Translations under genes and position numbers: made by a program
Part shown: one piece after another, positions 15,295 through 20,481 of the stretch
Numbering within the stretch: position 1 is the stretch's first letter
Layout of the letters: each line of letters starts with the position of its first letter
NCBI GenBank assembly: GCA_014730275.1
Contig: WJIL01000016.1
Coordinates: 62,001 to 126,000, forward strand
Direction of reading: 5' to 3'
Source of the DNA: Candidatus Lokiarchaeota archaeon
Lineage (GTDB): Archaea; Asgardarchaeota; Thorarchaeia; Thorarchaeales; Thorarchaeaceae
Length of the DNA: 64,000 nt
The notes under the pieces: generated by a model
Databases searched by the model: none
The model's input: the letters and a program-made list of their open reading frames with translations, nothing else
What the model was told of the DNA's origin: nothing

Positions 15295-15834
15295 ATGAAC
15301 AATACAAATCCGAATCTTAGCTCTGAGTGGAATACAACCCCTGTACAGTTGAGTAAGGAGCTGGAATCTTTCATTGAGGAGTTTGGCTCGTTTACTCCCG
15401 AATGGTTTATTGAGGTGAAGTTCCATCTTCTGAAAGACTCGGGCCTGACTTCCACTACAAGAGACGAGCTGTGCGATGTATCAATTCATGGGGAATTCTG
15501 CAAGAATTGTGATCTTCTCTACAAAGCAAAAAAGTGCAAATTATGGTATCAGCTCTTTGACCTTGTAACTTGGAAAATAGTTCATAAAGCACCACCTTGC
15601 ATCCGATTGGCTTATGCAAAGAACAACATACGAACCGTTGTCAATTTTCTAACTGCGGCGAATCTAATTGACCCCCCTTTTTACTCGGTACGGTCTGCTC
15701 CCTCATGCAAAAGCCTACGGAGGTGGGGGTACTGTAATCCGAATCGTTATTGCCGAGCGATGACGACAGATAATACCCTGGAATATCAAAGAGCAAGAAC
15801 AAAAGTACAACATAATCGGGCAATTGAAGAGTAG
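15295..15834 (+). CDS. Cysteine-rich protein resembling the primase large-subunit Fe-S domain
   Basis: Unassigned protein of 179 residues with eight cysteines (60, 69, 72, 81, 102, 138, 147, 153). The C-terminal stretch KAPPCIRLAYAK, then SAPSCKSLRRWGYCNPNRYC, resembles the order of motifs in the [4Fe-4S] C-terminal domain of PriL/Pri2 (PPCI..., then PSC...GxC...C). The spacing between the first and second cysteine is shorter than in PriL. An upstream FCKNCDLLYKAKKC may be a second metal site. The primase N-terminal domain is absent. It precedes an HD phosphohydrolase gene with its own promoter. The PriL comparison is tentative. Confidence 0.5.
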   Translation: MNNTNPNLSSEWNTTPVQLSKELESFIEEFGSFTPEWFIEVKFHLLKDSGLTSTTRDELCDVSIHGEFCKNCDLLYKAKKCKLWYQLFDLVTWKIVHKAPPCIRLAYAKNNIRTVVNFLTAANLIDPPFYSVRSAPSCKSLRRWGYCNPNRYCRAMTTDNTLEYQRARTKVQHNRAIEE

Positions 15835-15879
15835 CACTTGCTGCAATCTTCTTCTCAAGTCCATGCAAAACATACCGTC

Positions 15880-15887
15880 TTAAATAT
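15880..15887 (+). promoter_or_regulatory. Probable TATA box for the HD phosphohydrolase gene
   Basis: The sequence ttaaatat inside an otherwise mixed region fits an archaeal TATA element. It lies 65 bases before the ATG at 15952, predicting a transcript start near 15910. This supports the shorter start over the longer open frame from 15838. Confidence 0.45.
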
Positions 15888-15951
15888 CACCTCACTACAT
15901 CTCTCTTCTACTCAGCTTACTCGAATGCCTGCATTTGCCGGAGAAATGATT

Positions 15952-17463
15952 ATGCGTGACAGTGTAGATAGGGATCTTACACGACTCATTCGAATCACGG
16001 GTATGCGAGGGAAGGCTATCACCTCCGCTAAGGCATCCGGTGGTGAGAAATGGAAAGCGGTTCAGAATCGGTTGGAAGCCCATAGCGAGCTGATTGCCAT
16101 GGGCGAATCACATACACGACAGAAAGCTATCCAAGATCCTGTTCATGGGCCGATACTTTTCGAGCCTTGGGAACTGGACCTAATTTCTTCCTGGGAAATG
16201 CTACGACTACGTTTTGTAAAGCAGCTTGGGCCAGCACACATGGTTTATCCAGGAGCAACACATACACGCTTCCAACATTGTTTAGGTACAAATTACCTTG
16301 CCCAGAAATGCATCGGGGTTGTCAATTATTGTGATGATTTGGATACTGCCAAATTTCATCCACTTTCTCGCCTTTTAGATGAATATCATCAAAAGATATT
16401 CCGGGCAACAGCTCTGCTTCATGATATAGGCCACCCACCGGCATCACATACCATTGAATTTGCATTACAATCCTATGCTAATCTGACTCATGTGGATCTT
16501 GGTGAGTACCTTGTTCTAAACAGCAGCATCACGGAGATTCTAGAGAACCACGATATTGAGCCATCGAAGATTGTTGATATCCTACAGCGAAGAACCAACG
16601 ACCCGAAAATGTTGTTGATTGCTGATTTCTTGGATAGCCCACTGGACCTGGACAAAACCGATTATCTAATTCGTGACGCTCATTTCAGTGGTGTGCAGTT
16701 AGGTGTATTCCCGGCTGAAAGAGTGATGCTAACCAATCGGGTAGTACAGAATCGCGAAGGGCGTTATCTCCGGGCTTTCATGCTCAAGGCGCTTCACTCT
16801 TTGGAAGCGCTCATACTCAGTCGAAATTGGATGTTTAGCGACCTGTATCTGCATCATGCAGTAAGAGTTGCTGAAGCCTTATTGTCAAAGGCAACCTACT
16901 TCCGAATGAAGGAGGAGGATTTTTCACTGAATGAGTGTGTGGGTCTATTCACCAGAATGACCGATGAGGATCTTTATCGTTGGCTTAGAGAATCTGAGAT
17001 TGACTTTGTTCGAGAATATGCTGCACGTTTTCGCTATCGTCGTTTGTTCAAAGTTGCTGTGGCTAGGCCCTTGAGTGCTTTTGCACCCCATATCGAAGAT
17101 AATCTCTTGTCTCTGAATGAGGATATTGACGCACTTATTGAAGCTGAGCAGCAGCTATCTGAAGAGCCGGGGTCTGTTATTCTCGATGTTGTTAAACCCG
17201 AATTGGGAGAGAAGACTTTGCGGAACATACCCCTCTTAGTTGGAGGAGAGAAAACAGGCCTTGAAATCTTGGATTTGGAAGATACAGAGGAGGGAAAACC
17301 CCTAGCACACGCTATTGCTCAGCAAGAACGAACCATTCCCTCAGTACGAGTTTATACTTCGCCTCATATGATTGATGAGATACGAAACAGGTTTGATCGA
17401 TTATATCCTGTTTCTAACAAGAACATGCATCGACAGGATGAGTATGATATGTATGAAACTTGA
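15952..17463 (+). CDS. HD-domain phosphohydrolase (SAMHD1/dGTPase-like)
   Basis: Protein of 503 residues from the chosen ATG, which has ggag eight bases upstream. The HD signature is intact: THTRFQHCLGTNYLA (first His), then ATALLHDIGHPPASHTIEF (HD), and later LDKTDYLIRDAHFSG (Asp). The N-terminal QDPVHGPILFEPWELDLI is typical of the SAMHD1-like branch, whose members hydrolyse dNTPs or related nucleotides. An N-terminal helix and a C-terminal 200-residue region are extra to the core. It sits in an accessory block with RNase III-like and CARF-like genes. The substrate is unknown. Confidence 0.85.
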   Translation: MRDSVDRDLTRLIRITGMRGKAITSAKASGGEKWKAVQNRLEAHSELIAMGESHTRQKAIQDPVHGPILFEPWELDLISSWEMLRLRFVKQLGPAHMVYPGATHTRFQHCLGTNYLAQKCIGVVNYCDDLDTAKFHPLSRLLDEYHQKIFRATALLHDIGHPPASHTIEFALQSYANLTHVDLGEYLVLNSSITEILENHDIEPSKIVDILQRRTNDPKMLLIADFLDSPLDLDKTDYLIRDAHFSGVQLGVFPAERVMLTNRVVQNREGRYLRAFMLKALHSLEALILSRNWMFSDLYLHHAVRVAEALLSKATYFRMKEEDFSLNECVGLFTRMTDEDLYRWLRESEIDFVREYAARFRYRRLFKVAVARPLSAFAPHIEDNLLSLNEDIDALIEAEQQLSEEPGSVILDVVKPELGEKTLRNIPLLVGGEKTGLEILDLEDTEEGKPLAHAIAQQERTIPSVRVYTSPHMIDEIRNRFDRLYPVSNKNMHRQDEYDMYET

Positions 17464-17527: not shown

Positions 17528-18220
17528 TTATCGAAGAATATGTGTTATTTCTCTTTCAACCGTATCAAAACCATGTTCAACATAGATGATACCATATACC
17601 GCCTCTAGCAATGTGCCTTTGTCATGTTGCATTTCTGCATCACTAGGATATCCGGGATCGAAATGAATTCTATATTCATAGAGTCCCCAATCATCACAGA
17701 TGTCGGCGAGATGCTCATTCGAAACGATATCTGCTCTGCGTTGTGTCAGCATTCCTACGTCAGCAGCAATGGGTTCCCATAAGTAGTGCAGTACCGCCAT
17801 ATCTATAGCAGCATCTCCTACCAGTGCAAGTGCTTGTGCCATTTCGGGGAGATTGATTAGATTCTCGAAATCTTGGTTTGACAAGGGGCAATTCCTATCA
17901 TAGCGATATTCGGTTTCGAGCTCGAGGAATATGTTCTTTGTACTGGGCTGAAACATGCCAATTTGAAGGAGTTCACTATCCCTGAAATCGATGTCTAGCT
18001 CATTCTCCAGCCTTGGTCCAAGTATCTCTTCTATCTCAACAAGCTTCGATTCAACTTGCTGTATTGATTCATCCCACCGATCAAGCTTGTCGAGAGTTCT
18101 AGTGTTTCTTCCAGGTGTTTCTTTTCGCTTCTCGTGAATCATCGTTTGGATTGTGTGTATCTTCTGTTTAAGGCCAATCTGTATCCAATCGAGCTGGTGA
18201 ATCGGTTGCTTCGAACTCAA
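17528..18220 (-). CDS. RNase III-like domain protein
   Basis: Protein of 230 residues. Residues 1-75 look helical or coiled-coil. From about 125 it resembles the RNase III fold: ALALVGDAAIDMAVLHYL (131-147), ADIVSNEHLADICDDWGL (163-180) and LLEAVYGIIYVEHG (204-217). D136 and E206 match the paired catalytic Asp and Glu of Mini-III enzymes. The other two acidic positions of classical RNase III (EtlE) are replaced by Q and A. No dsRNA-binding domain is present. It starts with TTG two bases after the stop of the CARF-like gene, so the two form an operon. RNase III-type proteins are uncommon in archaea. Confidence 0.6.
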   Translation of the reverse strand: MSSKQPIHQLDWIQIGLKQKIHTIQTMIHEKRKETPGRNTRTLDKLDRWDESIQQVESKLVEIEEILGPRLENELDIDFRDSELLQIGMFQPSTKNIFLELETEYRYDRNCPLSNQDFENLINLPEMAQALALVGDAAIDMAVLHYLWEPIAADVGMLTQRRADIVSNEHLADICDDWGLYEYRIHFDPGYPSDAEMQHDKGTLLEAVYGIIYVEHGFDTVEREITHILR

Positions 18221-18222
18221 GG

Positions 18223-18990
18223 CTATCCTCTCGGAATTAACTGAAATGTGCGGAATTCCCCTCTTTCTGTTCTATCTAGGTATACAGCTTCAAGTGAATA
18301 GTCTGATGCAAGCATAAAAAGAGCTAATACGATGACAGCCGGGCCCATGGACACGTCGACAATCAAATTGTATTTCTTCATGTCTTGGAGAGCAATCTTT
18401 TCTATATGTTCGTAGATGCCTTCCAGATTCCCGTGTCCTTCTACCACGGTACTGTGTAGAAGGGTGTCTGGTATTTCATGCCATGTAGTTTCCCACGATC
18501 CATCACAATCATTGGGAATGAATCTACTCAAGCTCCTTTGGACCCCTCTGGAGAAACGACGCTCGCTGACGAAAATCCTGACTATCTCAACGTTTATTCT
18601 TTCATCCCTGCTTAGCCACTTGGCAAGAGGCCTTTGGTCATCTGGCATTGCAATAGATGTGATGAGAATATTGGGCCTGGGAGACCTGAGGACTTTCCTA
18701 ACTGGGTGAATGGCTTCGGGAGAAAGCTGGTATACTCTCTTTCGCCCCTCCTTGGAACTGGATATCATTCCCTTTTTCTCAAGATGTTTGGTATTGAAGT
18801 AGAGTTTGGGATCCGTGACTTTCACTTCATCATCTTTATCACCTTGTCGGGCAATTATGTCTCTCCTTATTGCCTCTCTGAGTTCACTTCCTGTCTTCTT
18901 TCCCCCTTCTAGCTGCTCTAGAATGATTCTTCTGACGGGAACACTCTCTATTTCTTGGCGAATAGCTGCTTCTGCAGTTTCCACGAACAT
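18223..18990 (-). CDS. Winged-helix protein with C-terminal CARF-like domain
   Basis: Protein of 255 residues. Residues 1-95 form a winged helix (RRIILEQLEGGKKTGSELREA, then KHLEKKGMISSSKEGRKRVY). Residues about 106-250 look like a Rossmann-type CARF sensor: NILITSIAMPDDQRPLAKWL opens it, and IVDVSMGPAVIVLALFMLA (210-228) occupies the place of the CARF D-x-[ST]-G-G-x-[KR] nucleotide loop, but without its lysine. The order HTH then CARF is the reverse of Csa3. A TATA-like aaatatatta (19013-19022) 27 bases before the ATG suggests a leaderless transcript. No CRISPR genes are in the window. Confidence 0.55.
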   Translation of the reverse strand: MFVETAEAAIRQEIESVPVRRIILEQLEGGKKTGSELREAIRRDIIARQGDKDDEVKVTDPKLYFNTKHLEKKGMISSSKEGRKRVYQLSPEAIHPVRKVLRSPRPNILITSIAMPDDQRPLAKWLSRDERINVEIVRIFVSERRFSRGVQRSLSRFIPNDCDGSWETTWHEIPDTLLHSTVVEGHGNLEGIYEHIEKIALQDMKKYNLIVDVSMGPAVIVLALFMLASDYSLEAVYLDRTERGEFRTFQLIPRG

Positions 18991-19073
18991 AATGGATGCC
19001 CATTCTTACAACAAATATATTACCTATATATGATATTGCGATGTCCTCAGGAAATACACGACGCACGTATGCT

Positions 19074-19094
19074 GGTATTACTAGGAGTAATACC
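19074..19094. repeat. Perfect 9-base inverted repeat with 3-base spacer
   Basis: ggtattact and agtaatacc flank agg. The arms are exact reverse complements. The position, 84 bases upstream of the CARF-like gene start, fits an operator for a dimeric winged-helix protein. A second weaker dyad (acccg/cgggt) overlaps its right end. Confidence 0.6.
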
Positions 19095-19180
19095 CGGCAA
19101 ATACGGGTTTTAGAGGGGCTCTAGGAGCATTCTGTGAATGTTGTCGAGATGGACGCATCACGAAGTGTTTACTGGTTCTG

Positions 19181-19198
19181 TGATGTATATATACATCA
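19181..19198. promoter_or_regulatory. 18-base perfect palindrome upstream of actin
   Basis: The sequence tgatgtatatatacatca is its own reverse complement over 18 bases. It lies about 50 bases upstream of the actin TATA-like element and 138 bases before the actin ATG. Symmetry of this length suggests a binding site for a dimeric regulator. Confidence 0.6.
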
Positions 19199-19335
19199 TA
19201 TAGATATTGTAAATAATGGGCGATTTATCGAAAGCATGCAAACAAGGCTTAAATACGGCATTACAGACTGTTTACTCGCAAATGGTTTTGGAAATCCTGT
19301 TCTAGAACATATCAAAAAGCGAAATAAGGAGACTG

Positions 19336-20481
19336 ATGAATTTGGCGGAAGACGAGTACTTGGGCGCGAAGCCCATTGTGATTGATAACGGTACAGGCCT
19401 GAGTAAGAACGGATACGCGGGCGAAGACCAACCCCGTAGTGTTTGGCCTACACTGATTGGCTACCCCCGATACGAGTCAATAATGACTGACGTTGACCAT
19501 TACACTCGGGACTACTACATCGGTGAAGAGGCAATCAACCTACGTGGTGTCCTTCGACTGGTATATCCTATTACCCACGGTGTGATTGATGACTGGGATG
19601 CGATTGAGAAGATATGGTCTTACACTTTCTATAATGACTTGAAGGTCGACCCCAGCGAGAATCCGGTACTGCTTACTGAAGCACCATTCAACCCACGAGA
19701 AAACAGAGAGCGCATGGCATCTGTCATGTTTGATAATTTTGGAGTTCCTGCAGTTTATGTGGCAACACAGGCTGTCCTATCACTCTACGCATCGGGCAGA
19801 ACGACAGGACTCGTTATTGACTCGGGAGATGGTGTTACTCACATTGTACCTATCTACGAGGGCTTTGCTATTACTCATGCAATCAGGCGAATCGATCTGG
19901 CAGGTCGTGACATAACGGAATACCTCCGGAGACTCCTGAGACAGCGTGGTTACACCTTCGTAAGTGGTGCAGAAAAAGAGATTGTGAGAGATATCAAGGA
20001 GAAGCTTTGCTACGTCGCACTTGATCCTGAGAAGGAAAGACAGGTTGCTGATAAGGCCGGCGTAGACAAACCGTACATGCTGCCTGACGGTGAGACTATT
20101 ACCATCGGCGCAGAGCGGTTCCAGGCACCAGAGCTCTTCTTTAATCCGAGCGCAATTGGACTTGACACCATCCCGATGGATGATCATATTGTCGAGTCAA
20201 TCAAGCAGTGTGACGTTGACTTGCGACGTGAGCTTTATGCCAACATCGTATTGTCTGGTGGTTCAACCATGTTCCCAGGTCTTAAGGAGCGACTCCACAA
20301 GGAGGTTTCCGAACAGCTACCTGAGAACCTCGAGGTTCGCATCATTGCACCTCCTGAGAGACAGTACTCAGTTTGGATTGGTGGCTCCATCCTTGCTTCT
20401 CTGAAGACCTTCCAGAAGATGTGGGTCAGCAAGAAAGAGTTCGAAGAAGCTGGACCGGAAGTCATCCACCGCTGTATCTGA
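19336..20481 (+). CDS. Eukaryote-like actin (Asgard actin)
   Basis: Cytoskeletal ATPase of 381 residues, close in length to eukaryotic actin (about 375). The phosphate loops are IDNGTGLSKNGYAG (16-29) and VIDSGDGVTHIVPIYEG (160-176). Residues Q145 and H169 match the eukaryotic catalytic Gln and His. The adenosine loop VLSGGSTMFPGL (305-316) and the C-terminus SVWIGGSILASLKTFQKMW to EEAGPEVIHR are nearly eukaryotic in wording. This sets it apart from MreB, crenactin and ParM. A Shine-Dalgarno aaggag precedes the ATG. A profilin- or gelsolin-regulated filament is expected; a gelsolin-like gene lies 8 kb away. Confidence 0.96.
   Translation: MNLAEDEYLGAKPIVIDNGTGLSKNGYAGEDQPRSVWPTLIGYPRYESIMTDVDHYTRDYYIGEEAINLRGVLRLVYPITHGVIDDWDAIEKIWSYTFYNDLKVDPSENPVLLTEAPFNPRENRERMASVMFDNFGVPAVYVATQAVLSLYASGRTTGLVIDSGDGVTHIVPIYEGFAITHAIRRIDLAGRDITEYLRRLLRQRGYTFVSGAEKEIVRDIKEKLCYVALDPEKERQVADKAGVDKPYMLPDGETITIGAERFQAPELFFNPSAIGLDTIPMDDHIVESIKQCDVDLRRELYANIVLSGGSTMFPGLKERLHKEVSEQLPENLEVRIIAPPERQYSVWIGGSILASLKTFQKMWVSKKEFEEAGPEVIHRCI

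Follow-up and report, generated by a model that had tools for sequence, protein, structure and literature searches.

A winged-helix/CARF protein encoded with an RNase III-domain protein and divergently from actin in Thorarchaeia

An S-R gene pair and a divergent actin gene

The locus lies within a stretch of 64,000 nucleotides, which we refer to as the window: it comprises two minus-strand genes, here called S and R, together with an actin gene that is read away from S across a shared control region (Table 1). According to the ORF coordinates R is found downstream of S after a gap of 2 bp, with its TTG start preceded by GAGAGG, and this start context is identical in a second genome of the same genus. 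The sequence-only reading of this DNA had drawn attention to the tight spacing of the two genes and to several protein motifs, all of which were found in place. It had also reported that neither a Cas gene nor a CRISPR array is present, which holds for the window, where no Cas genes are evident in the ORF list and no CRISPR-spaced 20-mer repeats were detected, but not for the genome, which carries Cas10 on another contig. On the far side of R lies the convergent gene for an HD-domain phosphohydrolase, which is kept beside R in most loci of the family and gives a weak dGTPase match in PADLOC; adjoining it, again in most family loci, is a gene for a Cys-rich protein of 179 aa, for which no Pfam match was obtained.

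Table 1. Positions of genes and candidate control elements, numbered from the first letter of the window.
Feature	Position	Strand	Remarks
Cys-rich protein	15295-15834		179 aa
HD-domain phosphohydrolase	15838-17463		convergent with R
R	17528-18220	(-)	TTG start, 230 aa; RNase III-domain protein
S	18223-18990	(-)	ATG start, 255 aa; predicted wHTH + CARF regulator
Shared divergent control region	18991..19335	(.)	345 bp between S-R and actin; basis: ORF ends
Candidate operator	19074..19094	(.)	perfect palindrome GGTATTACT-AGG-AGTAATACC; matched arm changes in same-genus genome
Second candidate operator	19181..19198	(.)	TGATGTATATATACATCA; upstream of actin promoter element
Actin promoter element	19242..19255	(+)	ACAAGGCTTAAATA; BRE + TATA-like; parts kept in most family loci
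Actin, predicted Lokiactin-like	19336..20481	(+)	divergent from S; PF00022, 443 bits

Within the control region, motifs recurring across the family are confined to the actin promoter and the start site, and no operator common to different genera or to the family was found: the 9-mer GCTTAAATA is present in 20 of 28 family regions and the 10-mer AGGCTTAAAT in 15 of 28, compared with at most 3-4 for shuffled sequences, many of these loci being close relatives. An AT-rich TATA-like stretch is found at the start region on the S side. The perfect palindrome is the only exact copy in the genome; its same-genus version reads GGTATTACC/GGTAATACC, with both arms matched and the spacer changed, and it was not seen in other genera. 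The outer arms of the second element also co-vary in the same-genus genome (TGACG/CGTCA), which is a weak signal drawn from two genomes only. Both palindromes may be regarded as putative operators of the window's genus, on the basis of two genomes and as a lead only. Taken as a whole, an RNA hairpin upstream of S fell short of significance (z -1.4).

Domain architecture of S and R

The N-terminus of S (about residues 1-100) is an ArsR/PadR-like winged helix and the C-terminus (about residues 105-251) a CARF domain. The AlphaFold (AF2) model, built on an alignment of 33 relatives, has a pLDDT of 86.4 and displays the Rossmann-like order of strands and helices; in Foldseek its best solved matches were Csm6, Cam1, Card1 and Cad1 (E about 1e-5), with SqrR/LmrR-type winged helices matching the N-terminus and with TM-scores that are modest because each match covers a single domain. 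This comparison of folds was needed since no CARF relative of S was found among PDB sequences by either single-sequence or profile searches, and Pfam and NCBIfam returned sub-threshold matches alone, mostly to winged helices. The PADLOC profile CARF_m5 (PDLC01987), which represents a minor CARF family, matches the window S at 1.4e-23 over residues 13-243 of 255 and recognises 33/33 S relatives (best 2.4e-80). Model and profile agree in supporting the winged helix with C-terminal CARF fold that had been read from the sequence; the CARF part, which had been left without a class, falls into CARF_m5. S is thus predicted to be a one-component regulator of this family, for which no mention was found in the literature searched and hence no function and no linkage to actin or RNase III.

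In Csa3 and in ring nucleases, an Arg/Lys of CARF motif II contacts cyclic oligoadenylate (cOA; PMC8844856). This residue is absent from all Thorarchaeial S proteins, which show Pro, Ala, Ser or Thr instead (A218 in the window) within a DLSxGPP-like motif; it is present in the listed non-Thorarchaeial S proteins, where the motif is typical of CARF domains (e.g. DVTGGGK or DVTDGTR), and membership of CARF_m5 is independent of it. With Csa3 itself S shares the presence of CARF and winged helix on one polypeptide as well as weak profile matches. However, the domain order is reversed: S has the wHTH first, whereas Csa3 has an N-terminal CARF domain and a C-terminal wHTH, CARF-wHTH being the common order (PMC4012209). 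S further differs from Csa3 in scoring only 12.1 bits against a TIGR01884 cut-off of 60.2 bits, in the lack of cas genes beside it and, in Thorarchaeia, in the loss of the cOA-contacting Arg/Lys.

R consists of an N-terminal helical extension (about residues 1-80) and a nuclease domain (about 81-230) that matches PF00636 at 4.4e-13 (50.3 bits against a cut-off of 27). The AF2 model (pLDDT 91.9) retrieves Drosha and bacterial RNase III in Foldseek, so that profile and structure concur on the RNase III fold proposed earlier. A special closeness to Drosha was considered and rejected: the Drosha score sums two domains, and the single-domain scores are no better than those of bacterial RNase III. 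Alignment with canonical Asgard RNase III places D136 and E206 at two of the four acidic positions and A132 and T203 at the other two; D136 and E206 are invariant across the R family alignment, including relatives from other Asgard families that occur without S, which is in keeping with the suggested Mini-III-like catalytic pair. R resembles class 1 RNase III and the RNase III domains of Drosha and Dicer in fold, these providing its best solved-structure matches, but differs from class 1 enzymes in having lost 2/4 acidic positions and in lacking a dsRBD, for which the Pfam search gave no match. The lack of a dsRBD is instead a feature of Mini-III (class 4 RNase III, MrnC), and the single Asp and single Glu at the active site resemble the Mini-III pair, the correspondence to BsMini-III residues other than E106 being putative. 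E106 itself is essential in BsMini-III (PMC5141509). Differences from Mini-III lie in the archaeal origin of R and in its ~80-residue N-terminal helical region, owing to which R is not a catalytic domain only; the R profile matches Mini-III chains marginally (4oun, E 0.18).

Distribution of S, R and the S-actin pair

We surveyed 228 genomes of the phylum, 47 of them from the window's family, which named records assign to Thorarchaeota (the depositors of two records give Lokiarchaeota instead). S and R were each found in 43/47 family genomes, and no RNase III other than R turned up in the window genome. Where both genes were called, S was followed by R on the same strand in 28/28 loci, the two genes being separated by a small gap or overlapping slightly (most often -4), as it was in 33/35 named Thorarchaeal loci, the other two reaching a contig end inside or just after S: the adjacency noticed in a single genome is conserved among its relatives, and the pair belongs to the Thorarchaeia core genome rather than to a mobile defence island. 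Cas10 was found in 9/47 genomes of the family, and the same-genus genome keeps S and R with Cas10 absent; gaps in draft genomes weaken single Cas10 absences, but the overall pattern stands, and the distribution of S and R is independent of Cas10. The cOA input that the sequence-only reading had brought up for the CARF domain does not fare well against this: Cas10 is rare and no Thorarchaeial S retains the cOA-contacting Arg/Lys, so that S is unlikely to respond to a messenger from CRISPR.

Asgard families other than that of the window (e.g. f2; L134, L136, L138-L149) have R relatives in varied contexts without S, so R also has a use independent of S. In one genus with such an S-less relative a thiolase gene lies nearby. 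A mobile-element origin of S and R was also considered and discarded, as no relatives were found in phages (S and R), plasmids (R only) or viral contigs.

The actin of the window is the single actin-family match in its genome and appears to be Lokiactin-like: its peptides TFYNDLKVDPSENPV and SKNGYAGEDQPRSV resemble the Lokiactin antibody peptides of PMC9834061. S and actin are read away from each other in Thorarchaeia and in eight more families (f3, f5, f6, f9, f11, f12, f16 and f28), with named examples from Hermod-, Sigyn-, Jord-, Frey- and Baldrarchaeota, and in these eight families R is absent beside S. No divergent actin was found beside S in families f4, f23, f24 and f25, one f25 genome having actin about 3.3 kb from S. 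Two loci (L092 and L094) keep the S-actin pair among neighbours otherwise unrelated to those of the window, which indicates that the pair outlasts local gene order. The adjacencies are inherited and therefore do not count as independent events, and the conserved divergence could in part reflect inherited gene order, because several lineages retain other nearby gene pairs as well. Actin is the older and wider partner of S when compared with R, and the eight families that pair S with actin without R make R unlikely as the original target of S. In several non-Thorarchaeial lineages (L115, L121 and L129) the gene after S is convergent with it, and its product, judged by eye from its sequence, is 2-phosphosulfolactate phosphatase (ComB)-like.

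Proposed regulation of actin and the S-R operon

The explanation that we favour, with a probability of roughly one half, is that S regulates the actin/S-R region in response to a ligand, and that Thorarchaeia have recruited R as a dsRNA nuclease expressed together with S. The winged helix of S would bind DNA within the shared 345-bp region, while its CARF domain would sense a small ligand, probably of nucleotide type, that stems from the cell's own metabolism and not from Cas10; S would in this way tune the divergent actin promoter as well as its own S-R operon. In Thorarchaeia this operon would have gained R, a homodimeric dsRNA endonuclease of Mini-III type, expressed with S and adding an output at the RNA level. 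There is precedent for such a regulator in the CARF-wHTH transcription factor Csa3b, for which binding to promoters and to a cOA analogue is known (PMC7480081). We would suggest more tentatively that Asgard archaea possess an ancient, ligand-sensing, non-CRISPR CARF switch dedicated to the transcription of actin, into which Thorarchaeia have wired a dsRNA nuclease.

Among the alternatives, the one that survives best has S acting on S-R only and setting the level of the dsRNA nuclease in response to its ligand, with actin a bystander held in place by inherited order, a picture near to that of the sequence-only reading. The tight co-directional coupling of S and R throughout Thorarchaeia fits this well, as does the position of actin over 300 bp from S with a conserved promoter element of its own; the eight families in which S has a divergent actin but no R beside it speak against it, and we consider it unlikely. 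Still somewhat less likely, to our mind, is that R serves in housekeeping RNA processing (e.g. rRNA or mRNA maturation) and is merely co-transcribed with an unrelated regulator: Mini-III matures 23S rRNA in B. subtilis (PMC4357697), and R is the sole RNase III found in the genome, near-universal in the family and represented elsewhere by relatives without S, yet the strict retention of the S-R operon across the family suggests functional coupling. A defence unit, with the CARF domain detecting a messenger of infection and R degrading RNA in the manner of type III CRISPR ancillary effectors, would accord with the PADLOC-listed CARF family of S and with Cas10 elsewhere in the window genome; the near-universal core distribution with fixed rather than patchy synteny, the rarity of Cas10 in the family, the missing cOA-contact Arg/Lys in Thorarchaeia and the housekeeping-like neighbours render it improbable. 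Control of R through direct contact with S, as a sensor-gated nuclease, we regard as very improbable: the two proteins are encoded adjacently and presumably expressed jointly, and the confidently modelled N-terminal helical extension of R might offer a docking surface, but S has kept a complete N-terminal DNA-binding domain, which makes control at the level of transcription the simpler explanation.

It is chiefly as sensors in defence that CARF domains are known. A core CARF regulator outside CRISPR that lies beside actin in many Asgard lineages would provide an entry point to the control of the actin cytoskeleton, and R, predicted to be an archaeal RNase III whose active site has two residues, would be a nuclease whose target can be sought. 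The Lokiactin literature that we found deals with filaments and actin-binding proteins (including PMC9834061), and our limited literature search returned no candidate regulator of actin expression. The S-R operon and the control region that it shares with actin point to an unstudied way of controlling the actin cytoskeleton in the Thorarchaeia, which are eukaryote-related Asgard archaea, and the control of Asgard actin is tied to the question of eukaryote origins.
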